56,126 bases of DNA from a candidate division Zixibacteria bacterium HGW-Zixibacteria-1. Its GTDB lineage: Bacteria > Zixibacteria > MSB-5A5 > GN15 > PGXB01. This document shows, in pieces, positions 26,779-34,289 of this stretch. The position numbers and the translations under genes were made by a program. Each line of letters starts with the position of its first letter. Position 1 is the stretch's first letter. The notes beneath the pieces are model-generated. The model ran no database searches and was not told the DNA's origin. It saw only the letters and a list, made by a program, of their open reading frames with translations. Location of the stretch: positions 1-56,126 of the forward strand of contig PGXB01000021.1 of NCBI GenBank assembly GCA_002838945.1, in the 5' to 3' direction.

Positions 26779-27744
26779 TTATGGACTGGTTTTCAAGGCA
26801 TCATATAGCAGAATCGCCGTCGAAATCGATCCGATTAGTGCCGCAAACTCGGCCACGGAATTCAGTCCCAGGAAGCCGCCGCCGCTCCGGCCGACAATAA
26901 TATTATCCTCCGGACGAACCATGTACCTTCCGGTGACTCCGGCATTGATATATTGTTCCAGATTTATTTTGACCATCTGCGTATTAAGGCCGTCCTTGGA
27001 GACAACCGTCACCGTCTTGAGATTAGCATTTTCCGTCGGCCCGCCGGCCAGCGCCAAGGCATCGAGAATATCGATATTGCTTTCCAGCGTCACCGCCCCC
27101 GGCTCATTGACCGAGCCGATAACGTAAAAAATATTTTTTACCACCGGGCGGTCACTGAGTGTCCTGGCCGGCAGTCCCGCCGGGGCGCGTGAAATCTCGA
27201 TAGTGTCTCCGGCCCGAAGACGCGGCAAATTATTGACATTGCCCGTGACTACCATATCGGCCACGTTGACAACCTCCACCTGACCCGCCTGCTCGCCGCT
27301 TCGTATTATTAAGACGCGTGTCAGGTCGCCGGTTTCCGTTATTCCTCCGGCCTCATTTATTACCGTCCATAGATCCGGAATCTCTTCAAAAGTATACTTG
27401 CCCGGATTAAGGATCTGCCCGGTAATCCATACCTTCTGGAAACCATATTCCGTTACCCTGACGACCGTCTGCGAAATGGCCTTATTATAACGCGACATCT
27501 GGCGGACTATTTCCCGTTCCAGATCGCTTGTCGTCAATCCCGACGCCTGCAACTCGCCGATAATATCCAGCGAAATCTTTCCGTCCTGTCTGACTTTCAC
27601 ATTGGCATCAAGAGTGTTATCCTGCCAGAATTTGATTTCGAGAACATCTTCCGGCCCGATTATATACTCTCCGGCCGCGATCAGCGGCAACAGAAAAACC
27701 AGCAATAAAGACCCTGCTATCTTTAACGGATTATTTATTTTCAT
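26779..27744 (-). CDS. Wza-like polysaccharide export protein (poly-export + SLBB)
   Basis: The 321-residue outer-membrane/periplasmic export protein has a signal peptide (LLLVFLLPLIAAG), then the poly-export domain (YIIGPEDVLEIKFWQD to VVRVTEY). SLBB beta-grasp domains follow (KVWITGQILNPGKYTFEE, and FYVIGSVNEPGAVTLESN). A final hydrophobic helix (AALIGSISTAILLY) probably spans the outer membrane, as in Wza. No lipobox Cys is evident. It is the first gene of a unit with the TPR protein, tyrosine kinase, deacetylase and DUF362 genes. Confidence 0.93.
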   Translation of the reverse strand: MKINNPLKIAGSLLLVFLLPLIAAGEYIIGPEDVLEIKFWQDNTLDANVKVRQDGKISLDIIGELQASGLTTSDLEREIVRQMSRYNKAISQTVVRVTEYGFQKVWITGQILNPGKYTFEEIPDLWTVINEAGGITETGDLTRVLIIRSGEQAGQVEVVNVADMVVTGNVNNLPRLRAGDTIEISRAPAGLPARTLSDRPVVKNIFYVIGSVNEPGAVTLESNIDILDALALAGGPTENANLKTVTVVSKDGLNTQMVKINLEQYINAGVTGRYMVRPEDNIIVGRSGGGFLGLNSVAEFAALIGSISTAILLYDALKTSP

Positions 27745-27886: not shown

Positions 27887-29536
27887 CTAGGCCTTGCGCT
27901 CATATTCGGGCTGATAAAGCCTGGCGCAATTCCGTCCTTCCTCCTTGGCTCGAAGCAGGGCCATATCGGCGGCATGAATCAGTTCTTCGACCGATCCCGA
28001 ATCATCGGGATAAACGGCGCCTCCAATTGATACCGTATAATCCAGCCTGAGTTCCGTCCATTCGATAAATGCCCCCGACGACGAAAGACGTTTTCCGATT
28101 CGTTCCATGAATTGCAGCGTTTCCGCCCGGTTGGTCTCCGGCATCAGAAGGCAGAATTCATCGCCGCCGTAACGGGATAGAACATCATTCTCCCGGACCG
28201 CTTCCTGGAGCATGCCGGCAAATGATTTTATCAGCTCATCCCCCGCCTGATGGCCATATTTGTCATTTATAAATTTCAAGTCATCAACATCGAACAACAT
28301 AAGAGCCAGGTGATGATTAAATCGTTTGGCCCGTTTGACTTCTTCATTTATTCTCTTTTTAAAATACCGGAAATTATATATGCCGGTCAATCCATCGGTA
28401 TATGAAAGCTCTTCCGCCCTTTCATAGCGGCTGATATTTTCCGCCAGCGGAAGCGCCTCTTTTTTAAATCTTTCGATCCGCTCCAGGACTTCGGAGTTTC
28501 TGCTGTCGCTGCTCCAGGCGAGAACCGCTTTTCTTCGATACGCCCAGGGGATGGACATCATATAATTAACACTTTTGCCGTTCAAATCCTTGAAGCTGCT
28601 TTCAAGAACCTGATCGATTTCTTTTTGCATTTTCAGATTGACCGGCTTGTCCATTTCCATCTTTTTTACGATGGTCTCAAAATTTTCCTCGATAATCTTA
28701 TCGGCCTCTTTGCTCATATTCCAGCTCACCGAAAGCATCGGCGAATCCTGGCCGCCTGATTTCAAATACAGTCCCAGTTTGGAAAAATTACAGTCCTTCC
28801 GGAGCAGTTTCAGCAATTCGGGCACCAACTGCTGGCTGTTGCGTATTTTTAGTAATCTCAATGTCTCCAAGGCGGAATCGGCCGCCTGATCACCGGCCGG
28901 CGCCCCGAATTTTCTTTCCTCCAGCGAATGTATCTTGCTTTCGTACCGGGCGATTTTTTGTTCCTGCAATCCGATGTGATACGCGGTCGAAAGATTAAAT
29001 GCGAGCGTCGTCGCCAGCAGATTCAGCGTGGGATTATCCGGCGGTAACTTGGTGCTGATCAAATAAATGCCGTATAATCTGTCTCTCAGAAAAACCGGGA
29101 AAAAATAACTTAGATGCAGCGCTTCGAGCTGCTTAAGATAACCTTTGGAAAGCGCTGATTCCAGTTGCCCGATTGGTGTTACGCGGTGGAATGACTTGAG
29201 ACTCTCCATAAGTGACGGCTTCAGTTTTATTCTCAGCGAATGTTTGCTGAAATTTGTCACTCCCGAGAAATAATTGACCTCCAGGTTGGACCGATAATAT
29301 CTCAAAAATATGATTTTGTCGCAATGTAAATGCTTTTTCAGGATATTCGAGACACTGGCGGCGACTTCCGGGATCCGCCCCTCGCCCGAAATACTGCCTA
29401 CGGCCGCAAGCAAATCGTTCACCGCCGTTTCGTTGAGCTGCACGGCGCTTCCCTTTTTTCCGGCACCGGTAAAGGCAATTATCGCCAACACGATTACAAG
29501 AATCGTAAGGACTACTATTAAGATTATTTCTATCAT
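27887..29536 (-). CDS. Membrane-anchored diguanylate cyclase (GAF-like + GGDEF)
   Basis: The protein of about 549 residues makes cyclic di-GMP. One membrane helix (IEIILIVVLTILVIVLAIIAF) is followed by two GAF-like regions (about 35-190 and 215-370) and the GGDEF domain at the C-terminus. The active site reads RYGGDEFCLL near residue 457. An inhibitory RxxD site (REND) lies five residues before it, so product feedback is expected. The ATG at 29536 precedes the helix; the frame continues to a TTG at 29554. It lies next to the export genes and the STAS/RsbU-like pair, so it may control polysaccharide output. Confidence 0.92.
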   Translation of the reverse strand: MIEIILIVVLTILVIVLAIIAFTGAGKKGSAVQLNETAVNDLLAAVGSISGEGRIPEVAASVSNILKKHLHCDKIIFLRYYRSNLEVNYFSGVTNFSKHSLRIKLKPSLMESLKSFHRVTPIGQLESALSKGYLKQLEALHLSYFFPVFLRDRLYGIYLISTKLPPDNPTLNLLATTLAFNLSTAYHIGLQEQKIARYESKIHSLEERKFGAPAGDQAADSALETLRLLKIRNSQQLVPELLKLLRKDCNFSKLGLYLKSGGQDSPMLSVSWNMSKEADKIIEENFETIVKKMEMDKPVNLKMQKEIDQVLESSFKDLNGKSVNYMMSIPWAYRRKAVLAWSSDSRNSEVLERIERFKKEALPLAENISRYERAEELSYTDGLTGIYNFRYFKKRINEEVKRAKRFNHHLALMLFDVDDLKFINDKYGHQAGDELIKSFAGMLQEAVRENDVLSRYGGDEFCLLMPETNRAETLQFMERIGKRLSSSGAFIEWTELRLDYTVSIGGAVYPDDSGSVEELIHAADMALLRAKEEGRNCARLYQPEYERKA

Positions 29537-29599
29537 ATACTTAAATGCGACCAATCTATTGTATTTTAGCTTTTATGAAAGATGCTGTCAATTAAAATA

Positions 29600-30298
29600 T
29601 TATGACCTTTTATGCATACGGCGGGCATATCTGAACCGTGCACGGCGGGAAACCAGGTTGTTTTTCCATAAAATTCTGAAAACACCCCACCACTTGATTC
29701 TGGAATCAAATAACGACTCTTCCAGAACCAGCTTTAGTTCGGAAATGGTATAAAAGGGATCTTCGACAATGGCGTTCAAGATAATCTTTTCCGCCATTGT
29801 TCCGGCCACTCCACCCTTGACGACATCGCGCCCGGCAGCCGGAACAGGCGAAGAATCGGCGGGGATATAAGCCGGCAATTCTTCGATTGTCGTCCGATCG
29901 CTATTTATCGGGGCTTTTTTTTTTAGCCCCGCGGGATCGGGAGGAGTTCCAAAAGCGGTTCTGGCGGCGCCAATGCTGTCGTATGCGCTCAGAATGTTAT
30001 CGAATTCGAGCAACTCATAAATCTCCATAACATTGGGAACCATATTAACCAGTTTTATGTCGCCGCTGTTATCCCGTATCTCCTTAATTCGGGATATAAA
30101 AATGCCCCATCCGGCCGAGGATATATAATCGACTCCGGCCAGATCGAGAATGATTCCGTAACGACCCCGTTTTACCAGCTTGTCCAGAACCTCTTCCAGC
30201 TCCGTGGCAGTTAAGGTGTCGATAACACCGTCTACCCTTACCACCGATATGTTGTCGTCACGTCCGCTTTCGGAAACAGATAATTTAATATTTTCCAT
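29600..30298 (-). CDS. STAS-domain anti-sigma-factor-antagonist-like protein with extra C-terminal domain
   Basis: Residues 1-110 form a STAS domain like SpoIIAA/RsbV, with the phospho-acceptor serines in DYISSAGWG. A proline-rich linker (about 112-160) follows. A C-terminal region of about 65 residues (MAEKIILNAIVEDPFYTISELK, then KWWGVFRILWKNNLVSRRAR) looks helical and winged-helix-like, which ordinary RsbV proteins lack. The gene lies 91 bp downstream of the kinase/phosphatase fusion, its likely regulator. Phosphorylation may gate the C-terminal domain; that is inference. Confidence 0.88.
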   Translation of the reverse strand: MENIKLSVSESGRDDNISVVRVDGVIDTLTATELEEVLDKLVKRGRYGIILDLAGVDYISSAGWGIFISRIKEIRDNSGDIKLVNMVPNVMEIYELLEFDNILSAYDSIGAARTAFGTPPDPAGLKKKAPINSDRTTIEELPAYIPADSSPVPAAGRDVVKGGVAGTMAEKIILNAIVEDPFYTISELKLVLEESLFDSRIKWWGVFRILWKNNLVSRRARFRYARRMHKRS

Positions 30299-30389: not shown

Positions 30390-32393
30390 TCAATTTATCT
30401 GACGGGTTTCGATCTCGGAAGCGCCCTTTTCCTTAAATTCATCGGAACATATCGTAATAAAAGTGATATCATCGGTTTGTGTGGCCTGTCCGCAGTGCCG
30501 GTCGATATCGCTCAGTATAAGCCGCGTGATCTCTTTGGGATCGGCGTAGTTGCCGTTGTGAACCTGGCTGTTAAAAATGGCAATCAATCTTTCCAGCCCG
30601 TATTTCTCCGAGGTTCGGTTCATCGCCTCTGTTATGCCGTCGGAATATATAAACAATTTATCGCCCGCATTAATTTTTATCATGTGCTCGTCCAGTCTGT
30701 CAGCAAAGGCATTTTCACCCGAAAGCGGCAAACCAAGCGGGACGCCGGGTGGGTTCAAAAGCATGACCTCGCCTTTTTTCGGAGTCAGGTATATCAACGG
30801 GTTGTGACCCGCCGAAACAAAGTTCAGCTTCCTTGAATCGATACAATATACCGCCATAAATATGGTTATAAATATACCGGGCGGTATATCATCCTTGATA
30901 TAACCATCAACCGCGGTGAGAATGTCCTTTGATGATCTTTTTCCTTTGGCCAGGATTCTGATGACGGTTCGAAGCACCGACATCACCAGCGAGGCCGGAA
31001 TGCCCTTGCCGGCCACATCAGCCACGACCAGACAAAAATGCGTGTCATCAATGCGAAAGACATCATAAAGATCCCCGCTTATCCGGGAAGCGGCGCGATA
31101 GAATGCGTCCAGGCTCAAGCCCGGAATATTCGGCAGCTCTTTCGGCAAAAGTGTTTTCTGAATCTGCCCCGCCACTTCGATTTCCTTGGCTACCCGCTCT
31201 CTCTCGATAATGTTTTTCCGATCCCGGCGCAGACGACTCATCATCTCATTAAGCGCCTTGGAAATTTCGAAGTATTCCTCGACTCCCTCCAGCGGCAGTT
31301 CGGTTTCGATATCACCCGAACTAAACTTGCGAACCCTTTCGACTATGCGGACAATCGGGCTGACAAAATAATTGGACAGCAGATAAATTCCGCCCACGCC
31401 GAAAGCCAGACCGATGATGGTCAAAATAATAATCTTGCGGCGTTCGACATTTATCTGTTCGGCCAGCCTCCGGTCGGTGTAGGCAATATGAACCATGCCG
31501 ATCCTTCGGCCGCCGTTGACAATGTTATGGCTCAAATGAATCAGCTTGCCTTGCTCCGTCTGATAGACCTGAGGGATGCCCACCTCGCCCACCGAAATGG
31601 CGGGCGGCCTAATATATTCCTGATGAAGATTCCTGATATCGCGCGAGTCGGCCAGGATATCGCCGAGGGTATCAACCAGAATTACCATATTCAGCTCGGG
31701 ATTCGCCCGCACATAACTTCTGACAAGTTCATCGAATTCGACATCGGACCGCCGGTTAAGAATATACCCGCCGGCCTGGTCGGCGATGGTTTTGGACAGC
31801 GATGAAACCTTATCGGTCAGATGTTGATGAATATTCTTGGTGGTTCGATTGTCGATAAAAAGATAGGCCCCGGCGATAATTGTCAACATAATCAGGAAAG
31901 TATAGACCGAAAATTTGACCCTGATGGTAAACATCCGGCCCATAAACAACCGGGTCTTTTCCGGCTGATGCGAAATCAGCTTGGTCATGCGCAGTTCGTT
32001 GAAACCGGGCGTGGACAGGTATTCGACCGAATCCATAATCTTATTGATCATGTAAAACCCGAGCCCGCCCTTGCGGCCCGATTCCACCAGCTTCTTCAAA
32101 TCGAGGCGTCCGGCGCTGTCGGGCTGAAATGAGCGGCCATGATCGATCAGGGAAAATATGACCCGTCGCTTGAAAACAACTATTCGGATTCGAATTGTCC
32201 CGGGCTCATATAAATAGGCATGACGGATTATATTGGTGATGCCTTCCTCAATGGCCAAAATGACGGCGTTGACATTCTTGCGCAACATGCCGGCATTGAT
32301 ACAGGTTTCCCTGACCATATCCTGAATGACCGGCAATGATTTCTCGCTGGCCTGGTATTCGCCGTTTATTTCTCTGACCGGTTTCCGGAACAT
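30390..32393 (-). CDS. RsbW-like kinase domain fused to membrane sensor and RsbU/SpoIIE phosphatase
   Basis: The 667-residue protein combines two opposite activities. An N-terminal HATPase_c domain of the SpoIIAB/RsbW type lies at about 1-145 (AIEEGITNIIRHAY, LIDHGRSF, GGLGFYMINKIM). A membrane helix (YTFLIMLTIIAGAYLFI), an extracytoplasmic sensor of about 150 residues, a second helix (IIILTIIGLAFGVGGIYLL) and HAMP follow. The PP2C/SpoIIE phosphatase lies at about 420-650 (DLYDVFRIDD, VVADVAGKGIPASLVMS, FIYSDGITEAMN, TDDITFITI). The kinase half should phosphorylate, and the phosphatase half dephosphorylate, a STAS protein, probably the one encoded directly downstream. No sigma factor gene is nearby. 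Confidence 0.92.
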   Translation of the reverse strand: MFRKPVREINGEYQASEKSLPVIQDMVRETCINAGMLRKNVNAVILAIEEGITNIIRHAYLYEPGTIRIRIVVFKRRVIFSLIDHGRSFQPDSAGRLDLKKLVESGRKGGLGFYMINKIMDSVEYLSTPGFNELRMTKLISHQPEKTRLFMGRMFTIRVKFSVYTFLIMLTIIAGAYLFIDNRTTKNIHQHLTDKVSSLSKTIADQAGGYILNRRSDVEFDELVRSYVRANPELNMVILVDTLGDILADSRDIRNLHQEYIRPPAISVGEVGIPQVYQTEQGKLIHLSHNIVNGGRRIGMVHIAYTDRRLAEQINVERRKIIILTIIGLAFGVGGIYLLSNYFVSPIVRIVERVRKFSSGDIETELPLEGVEEYFEISKALNEMMSRLRRDRKNIIERERVAKEIEVAGQIQKTLLPKELPNIPGLSLDAFYRAASRISGDLYDVFRIDDTHFCLVVADVAGKGIPASLVMSVLRTVIRILAKGKRSSKDILTAVDGYIKDDIPPGIFITIFMAVYCIDSRKLNFVSAGHNPLIYLTPKKGEVMLLNPPGVPLGLPLSGENAFADRLDEHMIKINAGDKLFIYSDGITEAMNRTSEKYGLERLIAIFNSQVHNGNYADPKEITRLILSDIDRHCGQATQTDDITFITICSDEFKEKGASEIETRQIN

Positions 32394-32459: not shown

Positions 32460-34289
32460 TTATTCTTTGGACTGCAGGCGAAGTCTGGCCTGAGTAATAT
32501 TATTCAGGGTTTGCTCGTTTCCGGGATAATATTTAAGGACCTCCTGCCAGAGTTCGATCGCGTTCTCATATTCGCCGCTGCGATAATATTCCAGCGCATT
32601 GAGGTATATCTTCCAGACATGTTCATCCTTTTCAAGCTCGGTCTGGCTGGAAGGTTTCTGGCGCAAGCCGCTGATTCTATTGAGATACTCATTGGCGACG
32701 ATATTCCCCGGCGAGAGCTTCAGGACATTATTGAAATTCTGTTCGGCTGCCGTCAGACGGCCCAGATAAAAAGATTCGACTCCATCGCTGATCAGTCGCG
32801 CCATATTGACCGCCTTGCCGACCCGCCCTTTAAGCTCCTTGACCGCAACATCATCAGGGGACAACAGAAGTATTTTGTCGTAAGCCGAAATGGCATCGGT
32901 CAGACGGCCCGCTTTCTCCGCCGATTCGGCCTCGTTAAGCAGCTTGACGATACTGCTGTCGATGTCGGCCAAAAGACGCCGTTCAAGTCCGGCGAATCTT
33001 CGATCGGTATCATCCAGTTCCCGGGCCAGCCGGACGATATTCATTGCGGCAAGATATTCCTTGTTGGTCAACATTTCCCCGGCCTGAACATAGTAACCGT
33101 CGAGGATCGACCGCTTGAGCATTTCCTCGGTAACAACCGGCGTTTCCTGTTCCACCAGCTTGAGGCGAAGGCTCTTGATTTCATCAATTTTTTCCAATAC
33201 ATAGTGGTCGCCTTCACGATATGCCAGAGCCTTGTTATAAAATACAAAAGCTGAATCCTGATTGTCACGCTTCAGATACCAGTCGCCGCGGTCCTTGTAG
33301 TACTCGTACTGTTTGCGGCGATCATCCATAACAAGATAACTGCCGCGTGCATTCTGCAGGTCGATTTCACGCTCCAACTTCTCCTCGACCGACATTCCGA
33401 ATTTGAGCGACAGGCCGATCCGGTGTGAGTCGGTAATGCCGTCCATAATCTTGTAAGCATAATCAAATCTGGCCCGGCCAAGAATGATCCCCAGCCCGAA
33501 CGACAGATTGTCGCGGTCATAACCCATCCTGAAATCCATGCGGTCCGCGTAATTTGTCTCCATGCCGGCATGCAACTTTGCAGATCTTTCCTCCGGTATC
33601 TCCAAGCCGATATTAATACTGTGTTTGAAATCCTTAACCAGTGACAAATTCCGATATCCGATCCCTGCGATAACATTTCGCGGTTGCGTTTCCTGATCAT
33701 TCTGCAGCCGAAGCCTCGGAGAGATAATGTCCTGAAACAGTAATCCGGCCGTCAATTCCCTGTAAACGGGCATGTACAATGATATATCCAGTCCGACCCC
33801 GTACGTGGAATTATTATCCATCGACTGGTTGACAATCTTCAGTGCCGATCCGAGATAAATATTCCCGCCCATTTTTCGGCCATATGCCAGCATCATCTGG
33901 GCAATATAATATCCGAAATCGCCGCTCTCATTCCAGTCAACCCGTTTGACGATGTCCTCGGTCCCGAGCCGCATCAGAGAGACACCGAAACCGCCCAGTC
34001 GAGGGTGCGGATAAACATAACCGGCGACATCATACATGGTCCCTTCAAAAAGCGCCGCATGCATGAAATTGAATTCCTGCTCATTCAAAAGCGCCAGCGC
34101 CGCCTGGTTCCAGAAAACGGCCGAAGCATCATCCGCGAGACCGACATAACCGCCCCCCATGCCAAGCGCGCGGACGCCCGACCCGATTGAAAATTGGGAC
34201 TCATGCCCGGCATCACCCGCAAAGACCGGTACGACGATCATCACGGCCAGCAAGACTGCCGGCAAATATGTCCGCATCAGATACTTCAT
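32460..34289 (-). CDS. PorV/PorQ-family outer-membrane barrel fused to TPRs
   Basis: The 609-residue protein has a signal peptide (YLPAVLLAVMIVVPVFA). A barrel of about 300 residues follows, with the PorV/UPF0164 opening GVRALGMGGGYVGLADDASAVFWNQAAL. The C-terminal half is helical with TPR units (DWYLKRDNQDSAFVFYNKAL, AYDKILLLSPDDVAVKEL, ALEYYRSGEYENAIELWQEV). PorV-type proteins shuttle type IX secretion substrates to the cell surface in Bacteroidetes. The start ATG overlaps the TGA of the giant secreted protein (34286-34289), so the two are translationally coupled and may act as a carrier-cargo pair. Confidence 0.88.
   Translation of the reverse strand: MKYLMRTYLPAVLLAVMIVVPVFAGDAGHESQFSIGSGVRALGMGGGYVGLADDASAVFWNQAALALLNEQEFNFMHAALFEGTMYDVAGYVYPHPRLGGFGVSLMRLGTEDIVKRVDWNESGDFGYYIAQMMLAYGRKMGGNIYLGSALKIVNQSMDNNSTYGVGLDISLYMPVYRELTAGLLFQDIISPRLRLQNDQETQPRNVIAGIGYRNLSLVKDFKHSINIGLEIPEERSAKLHAGMETNYADRMDFRMGYDRDNLSFGLGIILGRARFDYAYKIMDGITDSHRIGLSLKFGMSVEEKLEREIDLQNARGSYLVMDDRRKQYEYYKDRGDWYLKRDNQDSAFVFYNKALAYREGDHYVLEKIDEIKSLRLKLVEQETPVVTEEMLKRSILDGYYVQAGEMLTNKEYLAAMNIVRLARELDDTDRRFAGLERRLLADIDSSIVKLLNEAESAEKAGRLTDAISAYDKILLLSPDDVAVKELKGRVGKAVNMARLISDGVESFYLGRLTAAEQNFNNVLKLSPGNIVANEYLNRISGLRQKPSSQTELEKDEHVWKIYLNALEYYRSGEYENAIELWQEVLKYYPGNEQTLNNITQARLRLQSKE

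Follow-up and report, generated by a model that had tools for sequence, protein, structure and literature searches.

A predicted one-chain membrane kinase/phosphatase and a candidate programmed slippage site in a putative partner-switch locus of Zixibacteria

Can one membrane protein both phosphorylate and dephosphorylate a STAS partner, and what would the state of that partner control? The question is raised by a gene in a 56,126-nucleotide contig from the Zixibacteria (the whole stretch that was analysed, hereafter the window). An initial annotation, made from the sequence alone, placed an RsbW-type kinase and a SpoIIE phosphatase on either side of an extracytoplasmic sensor and HAMP in a single chain. 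Pfam domains and the AlphaFold2 fold agree with this reading, and the protein is called KP here, for its fused kinase, sensor, HAMP, and phosphatase parts:

30390..32393, minus strand: KP, fused kinase, sensor, HAMP, and phosphatase, 667 aa; real open reading frame with Pfam domains and orthologs
31980..32351, minus strand: HATPase_c_2/RsbW-like serine kinase domain, aa 15-138 (Pfam E 1e-21, alignment, model)
within it, minus strand: kinase motifs by alignment, N box E50..N54, G1 D84-x-G86, G2 G109-G112
31854..31925, minus strand: first transmembrane segment, about aa 157-180 (hydrophobic stretch; model helix 157-212)
31449..31844, minus strand: extracytoplasmic single-Cache-like sensor, aa 184-315 (weak sCache_3_2 match, model)
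31227..31382, minus strand: HAMP, aa 338-389 (Pfam E 3e-7); second transmembrane segment ahead of it, at about aa 320-340
30450..31049, minus strand: SpoIIE/PP2C phosphatase domain, aa 449-648 (Pfam E 2e-42, 145.8 bits)

The AlphaFold2 model, calculated from an alignment of 23 orthologs, has a GHKL fold at the N-terminus, which matches RsbW 6m37 with a TM-score of 0.92 by target, a single-Cache-like sheet flanked by two long helices in the middle, and a PP2C fold near RssB, SpoIIE, and SiaA at the C-terminus. The sensor is the least conserved region in the ortholog alignment, and its sCache_3_2 match (E 0.003) lies under the curated cut-off. No Response_reg match was found in KP with Pfam; the Cache-like sensor and HAMP stand in place of REC. 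Taken together, the predicted architecture is almost certainly as listed. For the N-terminal domain, the RsbW models are the top NCBIfam matches (E 7e-16) and fall under the equivalog cut-off, with 58 bits vs 145 for the RsbW equivalog and 27 vs 135 for that of SpoIIAB. Judged by these profile scores, the kinase domain is RsbW-like and not RsbW itself.

The ATP-binding residues on which the proposed kinase activity depends are present: E50, N54, D84, G86, and the GGLG at 109-112 are invariant in 39/39 sequences. In the alignment with SpoIIAB structures, E50 and N54 occupy the positions at which SpoIIAB has its catalytic Glu and Mg-binding Asn, and from what is known of SpoIIAB we take them to share these roles. 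On the phosphatase side D441, D459, D585, D641, and D642 are likewise invariant in all 39, D441 falling just upstream of the Pfam SpoIIE match. Both domains are strongly predicted to be active. One could propose instead that the N-terminal domain serves a phosphatase mainly as a regulatory sensor of nucleotides or as a docking module for STAS, and that phosphorylation is left to separate RsbW-like kinases. Such genes do occur in the same genome, which holds further partner-switch sets: the kinase is separate at contig C3, STAS-fused at C4, and fused after a degenerate STAS-like stretch at C1. However, the solitary kinase genes belong to partner-switch loci of their own, the catalytic Glu, Mg-binding Asn, DxG, and GGLG have been kept without exception, and conservation within KP is higher for the kinase domain than for the phosphatase (mean 0.75 vs 0.57), which makes a non-kinase role improbable. 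Since the genome has other STAS, kinase, and phosphatase genes, cross-talk is possible. The C1 locus (L097:5714-8435, G000:C1) is partly parallel to that of KP, with FlgD-Ig and PorV-like genes and a TM-HAMP-SpoIIE protein without a kinase domain, followed by the kinase after its degenerate STAS-like stretch and then by a STAS gene; on its domain content, the kinase domain is shuffled there.

The order HATPase, transmembrane segment, sensor, HAMP, SpoIIE was sought in other genomes, as had been suggested at the outset, and it recurs. Among the 132 genomes of the phylum set (Zixibacteria, Candidatus Zixiibacteriota), whole-chain orthologs with 41-82% identity occur in most genomes of the order, and the half from HATPase to the second transmembrane segment is present in 104/132. 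KP is therefore neither a product of chance nor of misassembly. Among the matches listed in a plasmid search outside the phylum, all were to the HAMP-phosphatase half of KP, and none covered 80% of the query. The conserved gene order is FlgD-Ig, PorV-like, KP, STAS, GGDEF, polysaccharide export, TPR, and ParA-like ATPase; the outer neighbours in the window include:

32460..34289, minus strand: PorV/UPF0164-like and TPR outer-membrane protein (Pfam), conserved upstream neighbour
26779..27744, minus strand: polysaccharide export protein (Wza-like, SLBB; Pfam), conserved downstream neighbour

This order is not uniform. In families f17-f19 KP is often located away from the STAS-GGDEF pair, whose adjacency is kept, while in f2 the STAS gene has been relocated and KP and GGDEF are still together; STAS-GGDEF adjacency is also absent in f7. 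Given f2 and f17-f19, the KP, STAS, and GGDEF pairs are not inseparable. Loss of the STAS protein in f2 was ruled out, as the gene was found elsewhere in the genome: in f2 (L133, L131) the STAS-HTH gene has moved, and its neighbours in L133 encode an NtrC-type response regulator and a secreted protein of the subtilase family. The length of KP also varies, the chain reaching about 940-990 aa in f5, f9, f10, f15, and f16 (L149:3758-6580, L138, L143, L147, L153, L154, L156). In f10 the one member scanned (L149) carries HTH domains at the C-terminus; a KP of this type possibly combines kinase, phosphatase, and DNA binding in one membrane receptor. The long-KP families have a gene of 246-282 aa between KP and STAS, which in the one scanned encodes a ParA/MinD-like ATPase.

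The presumed substrate of KP is encoded directly downstream:

29600..30298, minus strand: STAS-HTH protein, 232 aa, presumed KP substrate (open reading frame, Pfam, alignment)
29963..30259, minus strand: STAS domain, aa 14-112 (Pfam PF01740; RsbV/SpoIIAA fold match)
29606..29797, minus strand: C-terminal helical, HTH-like basic domain, aa 168-231 (alignment, model, weak Pfam)

The initial annotation had named this gene as the STAS partner. The protein is real, matches TIGR00377 with 64.5 bits (above the cut-off of 53.45), and has an invariant Ser61 that aligns with SpoIIAA Ser58, the phosphoacceptor position; it is not a STAS domain alone, as it also carries the HTH-like domain. From its position and domains, it is very likely that KP acts on this protein. 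In the model a disordered linker (121-165) is followed by a four-helix basic domain. The basic C-terminus is conserved across most of the class, and all its profile matches are weak: HTH_Tnp_Tc3_2 in 6/16 members (best E 4e-5), HTH_24 in two of the 16, and HTH_32 in two. The window's own sequence had no HTH profile match in Pfam, a profile of the HTH-like domain gave nothing significant against PDB, and the best 50 foldseek rows for the model were mainly STAS folds, with none for the HTH part. On these sequence and model data, a DNA-binding HTH has about an even chance of being the right assignment.

What the STAS protein would control is suggested by the next gene:

27887..29554, minus strand: membrane-anchored diguanylate cyclase, GGDEF motif and I-site both intact, presumed output (Pfam; adjacency)

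Its open reading frame starts with TTG at 29554, and a strong promoter-like match, TTGACA-17-TAAAAT (11/12), lies at 29563-29591 on the minus strand, between the STAS and GGDEF genes. It is slightly favoured that the cyclase is an output of the STAS switch. The competing view puts the output in a sigma factor or a transcription programme: STAS-HTH would bind DNA directly, gated by its phosphorylation, and the GGDEF gene would merely be co-transcribed. The wide conservation of the basic C-terminus and the HTH on KP itself in f10 fit with this. However, the HTH assignment is weak, no sigma factor gene was seen among the neighbours examined, and few features of the locus are as steady as GGDEF adjacency. 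A purely transcriptional output is thus rather doubtful, and the adjacent cyclase is the more likely output when compared to a sigma factor; transcriptional and cyclase outputs could also both hold.

The most striking feature of the locus is a homopolymer in the linker of the STAS-HTH gene:

29915-29924, minus strand: A10 run within the disordered linker of the STAS-HTH protein, proposed as a programmed slippage site
29905-29907, minus strand: TAA stop immediately past the run in the +1 frame, which ends the short STAS form
29901-29903, minus strand: TAG stop in the other frame after the run

A run at this junction is present in 60/60 covered loci of the window's family, f1, and its sister family on the KP tree, f4 (two further genomes, cut or without the junction region, stand outside the 60). 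It is A10 in 51, A11 in one, and A9 in eight, where, as in the four genomes labelled +1 below, assembly indels are possible. In the other families a run of at least 8 occurs in 0/46 genomes, and STAS and HTH share one frame in 45/45 with an HTH found. Runs of at least nine A's on the strand of the STAS gene sit at the STAS/HTH junction in 60/61 cases over 1.28 Mb of collected loci, and the window's own genome has only 5 A10 runs in 3.8 Mb. The fourfold-degenerate sites of the STAS gene are about 64% different among run-bearing genomes, near saturation, so the run is not a relic. Locus GC in these genomes is between 35 and 66%. In KP genes, 56% of the Lys codons are AAA, and chance retention of three AAA codons in a row would be about 18% per genome. 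The phase of the run varies among genomes (44/11/5), from which it follows that the selected object is the nucleotide run and not the lysines. Assembly error as a general cause was ruled out, since the run recurs across many independent assemblies, as well as in single-contig genomes, and since the frame changes are indels outside the run. In all likelihood, the junction run is a selected slippage site.

The frame relations around the run are consistent with this. The HTH domain shares the frame of STAS in 24 of the 60 genomes; it is offset by -1 in 32 and by +1 in four, the last subject to the possible assembly indels noted above. The run lies inside the overlap of both frames in 36/36 out-of-frame genomes (overlap 10 to 331 nt). 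A separate start for the HTH domain was ruled out in at least 19/36 of them, which have no ATG, GTG, or TTG for a separate HTH protein. In all 60 genomes, a stop follows 1-9 codons past the run in the frame that is one ahead of that of HTH (the baseline in KP genes for a stop within 8 codons is 36%), so the short form is always about 126-136 aa. On the KP protein tree, made by a quick method with SH-aLRT support, the -1 label requires at least 14 changes, 10 of them forced by well supported branches. Repeated switching of this kind implies that either frame serves equally well, as slippage into all three frames predicts. The run very probably points to programmed slippage that would yield STAS and STAS-HTH from one gene.

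Frequent frame changes on the tree, the proneness of homopolymers to mutation, and the correction of frameshifts by slippage in insect endosymbionts (PMC5009743) could also be read as signs of a contingency tract subject to phase variation, or of a neutral corrector that just tolerates frameshifts, as in Buchnera. This is very unlikely here: the length is nearly fixed while frames change through indels elsewhere, the run is kept in the 24 in-frame genomes despite its easy loss by AAA to AAG and also in genomes of up to 66% GC, and a second gene, coaBC, has one too. The next debatable issue, within programmed slippage, is which machine shifts. No conserved RNA structure was found near the run (mean z -0.26), an SD-like stimulator is not conserved (motif in 7/60), and the palindrome GGGGCT..AGCCCC that surrounds the run in the window is no general feature. 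The A_AAA_AAA/AAG heptamers contained in every run would permit a -1 shift by the ribosome, such as that of E. coli dnaX, and since -1 is what 32/36 out-of-frame genomes need, it would serve most of them. However, the run is held at 10 though 7 are enough for a ribosome, its phase varies, four genomes need +1, and the A10 dnaX of Chlorobi has been assigned to transcriptional realignment (PMC3711429). Ribosomal frameshifting is therefore unlikely. Because conserved structure and SD stimulator are absent and 10 A's exceed the ribosome's need, RNA polymerase slippage is favoured by about 4 to 1, and the shift is probably transcriptional.

The coaBC gene of the same genome has an A10 at the CoaC/CoaB linker (L233, G000:C36:32506-32515). 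Runs of A9-A11 occur there in 12/13 f1 and 12/14 f4 genes, 24/27 in total (L235-L264, L265-L270), and are absent in f2 (0/6) and f3 (0/3). Five f4 genes have CoaB in the -1 frame with the run in the overlap. It is probable, from these alignments, that coaBC is a second slippage gene of f1 and f4, unrelated to the STAS gene. Earlier reports of slippage in either gene were not found in the literature searched, which included few subscription journals. Further A runs of this genome comprise an A9 (L295, G000:C34:15326-15334) before a FeoA-like C-terminal part and near an internal ATG, assigned by eye to a possible two-domain gene; an A10 within a zinc-ribbon/TPR protein (L234, G000:C50:4302-4311), with A9-A10 nearby in a minority of f1 relatives (L301-L309); and an A10 at the start codon region of a trmE/mnmE-like gene (L230, G000:C10:115783-115792).

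The scheme that is proposed combines a one-receptor partner switch with slippage at A10, and from the sequence data its probability is put at roughly 0.6. An extracytoplasmic signal on the Cache-like sensor would move HAMP and the two cytoplasmic enzyme domains, so that the state of the sensor would set KP either to phosphorylate Ser61 of the adjacent STAS protein through the RsbW domain or to dephosphorylate it through the PP2C domain. The state of Ser61 would in turn control the neighbouring diguanylate cyclase, and c-di-GMP would act on polysaccharide or surface functions encoded nearby. The sign of this control may be either, as SiaC and HsbA differ: unphosphorylated SiaC activates SiaD (PMC8457831), whereas it is phosphorylated HsbA that activates. 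In f1 and f4, slippage at A10, most likely by RNA polymerase, would give mRNAs in all three frames, and from them STAS alone, of about 126-136 aa, as well as full-length STAS-HTH, of about 230 aa. For the long form, DNA binding or sequestering would be the likeliest added role. More tentatively, A10 slippage may be a standing device of these two families for making short and full-length forms of fused genes (at least STAS-HTH and coaBC), with a fixed STAS to STAS-HTH ratio by which KP would feed both c-di-GMP and DNA-binding branches. The core of the initial interpretation, both activities in one membrane protein, stands in this scheme; the cyclase output, the HTH-like domain, and the A10 site had been missed.

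The premise that kinase and phosphatase are normally separate proteins is not supported, as SypE, HsbR/CrsR, and Rv1364c precede KP as single chains (PMC3610818, PMC6482189). SypE, a response regulator of Vibrio fischeri, has REC at its centre, in the order kinase-REC-phosphatase (PMC3610818), whereas KP has a transmembrane Cache-like sensor and HAMP between its enzyme domains, so that sensing would be direct. Its partner SypA is STAS only, and the STAS protein here has an HTH-like domain in addition. In HsbR-HsbA-HsbD of Pseudomonas aeruginosa and CrsR-CrsA of Shewanella, phosphatase and kinase share one chain and act on a STAS partner, and a diguanylate cyclase is a partner of the STAS protein (PMC6482189). 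Unlike in KP, the order is REC-phosphatase (PP2C)-kinase and the signal comes by phosphorelay; the text consulted reports no HTH and no slippage. In SiaABCD, also of P. aeruginosa, a membrane HAMP-PP2C phosphatase, a kinase, a STAS-like partner, and a GGDEF cyclase recall the KP locus (PMC8457831); however, SiaA and SiaB are separate proteins while the two activities are fused in KP, which scores 40.6 bits against the SiaA equivalog (cut-off 700), and SiaC is a DUF1987 protein with phospho-threonine, whereas the STAS domain here is canonical (PF01740). Control of diguanylate cyclases by STAS-type proteins is known from HsbA-HsbD, SiaC-SiaD, and BgrV-BgrR (PMC3610818, PMC6482189, PMC8457831). 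Rv1364c of Mycobacterium tuberculosis has RsbU-like and RsbW-like domains in one chain, as KP does (PDB 3ke6). Unlike in KP, the phosphatase is N-terminal to the kinase in the construct that was solved. To our knowledge, it has no transmembrane sensor.

It is thus plausible that a kinase/phosphatase in one chain serves a STAS partner here, which is not new in principle; the layout with a transmembrane sensor is the variant. KP would add a direct transmembrane-sensing form of such enzymes, apparently tied to c-di-GMP, which is conserved through the larger part of a phylum seen chiefly in metagenomes. For the run, the nearest parallels are the dnaX genes of Thermus thermophilus (A9), which uses transcriptional slippage, and of Chlorobi (A10), assigned likewise (PMC5009743, PMC3711429). 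They share with the STAS-HTH gene the A9/A10 run, nearby stops in other frames, and short and long products; in Thermus dnaX both of the other frames have such stops. The dnaX gene encodes a polymerase subunit, whereas here a signalling gene and coaBC are concerned and the in-frame form has been swapped repeatedly. With its run kept in 60 genomes while the default frame flips, the STAS-HTH gene is a candidate cellular case of programmed slippage with unusually strong conservation, and coaBC suggests that the device has been used more than once in the lineage.
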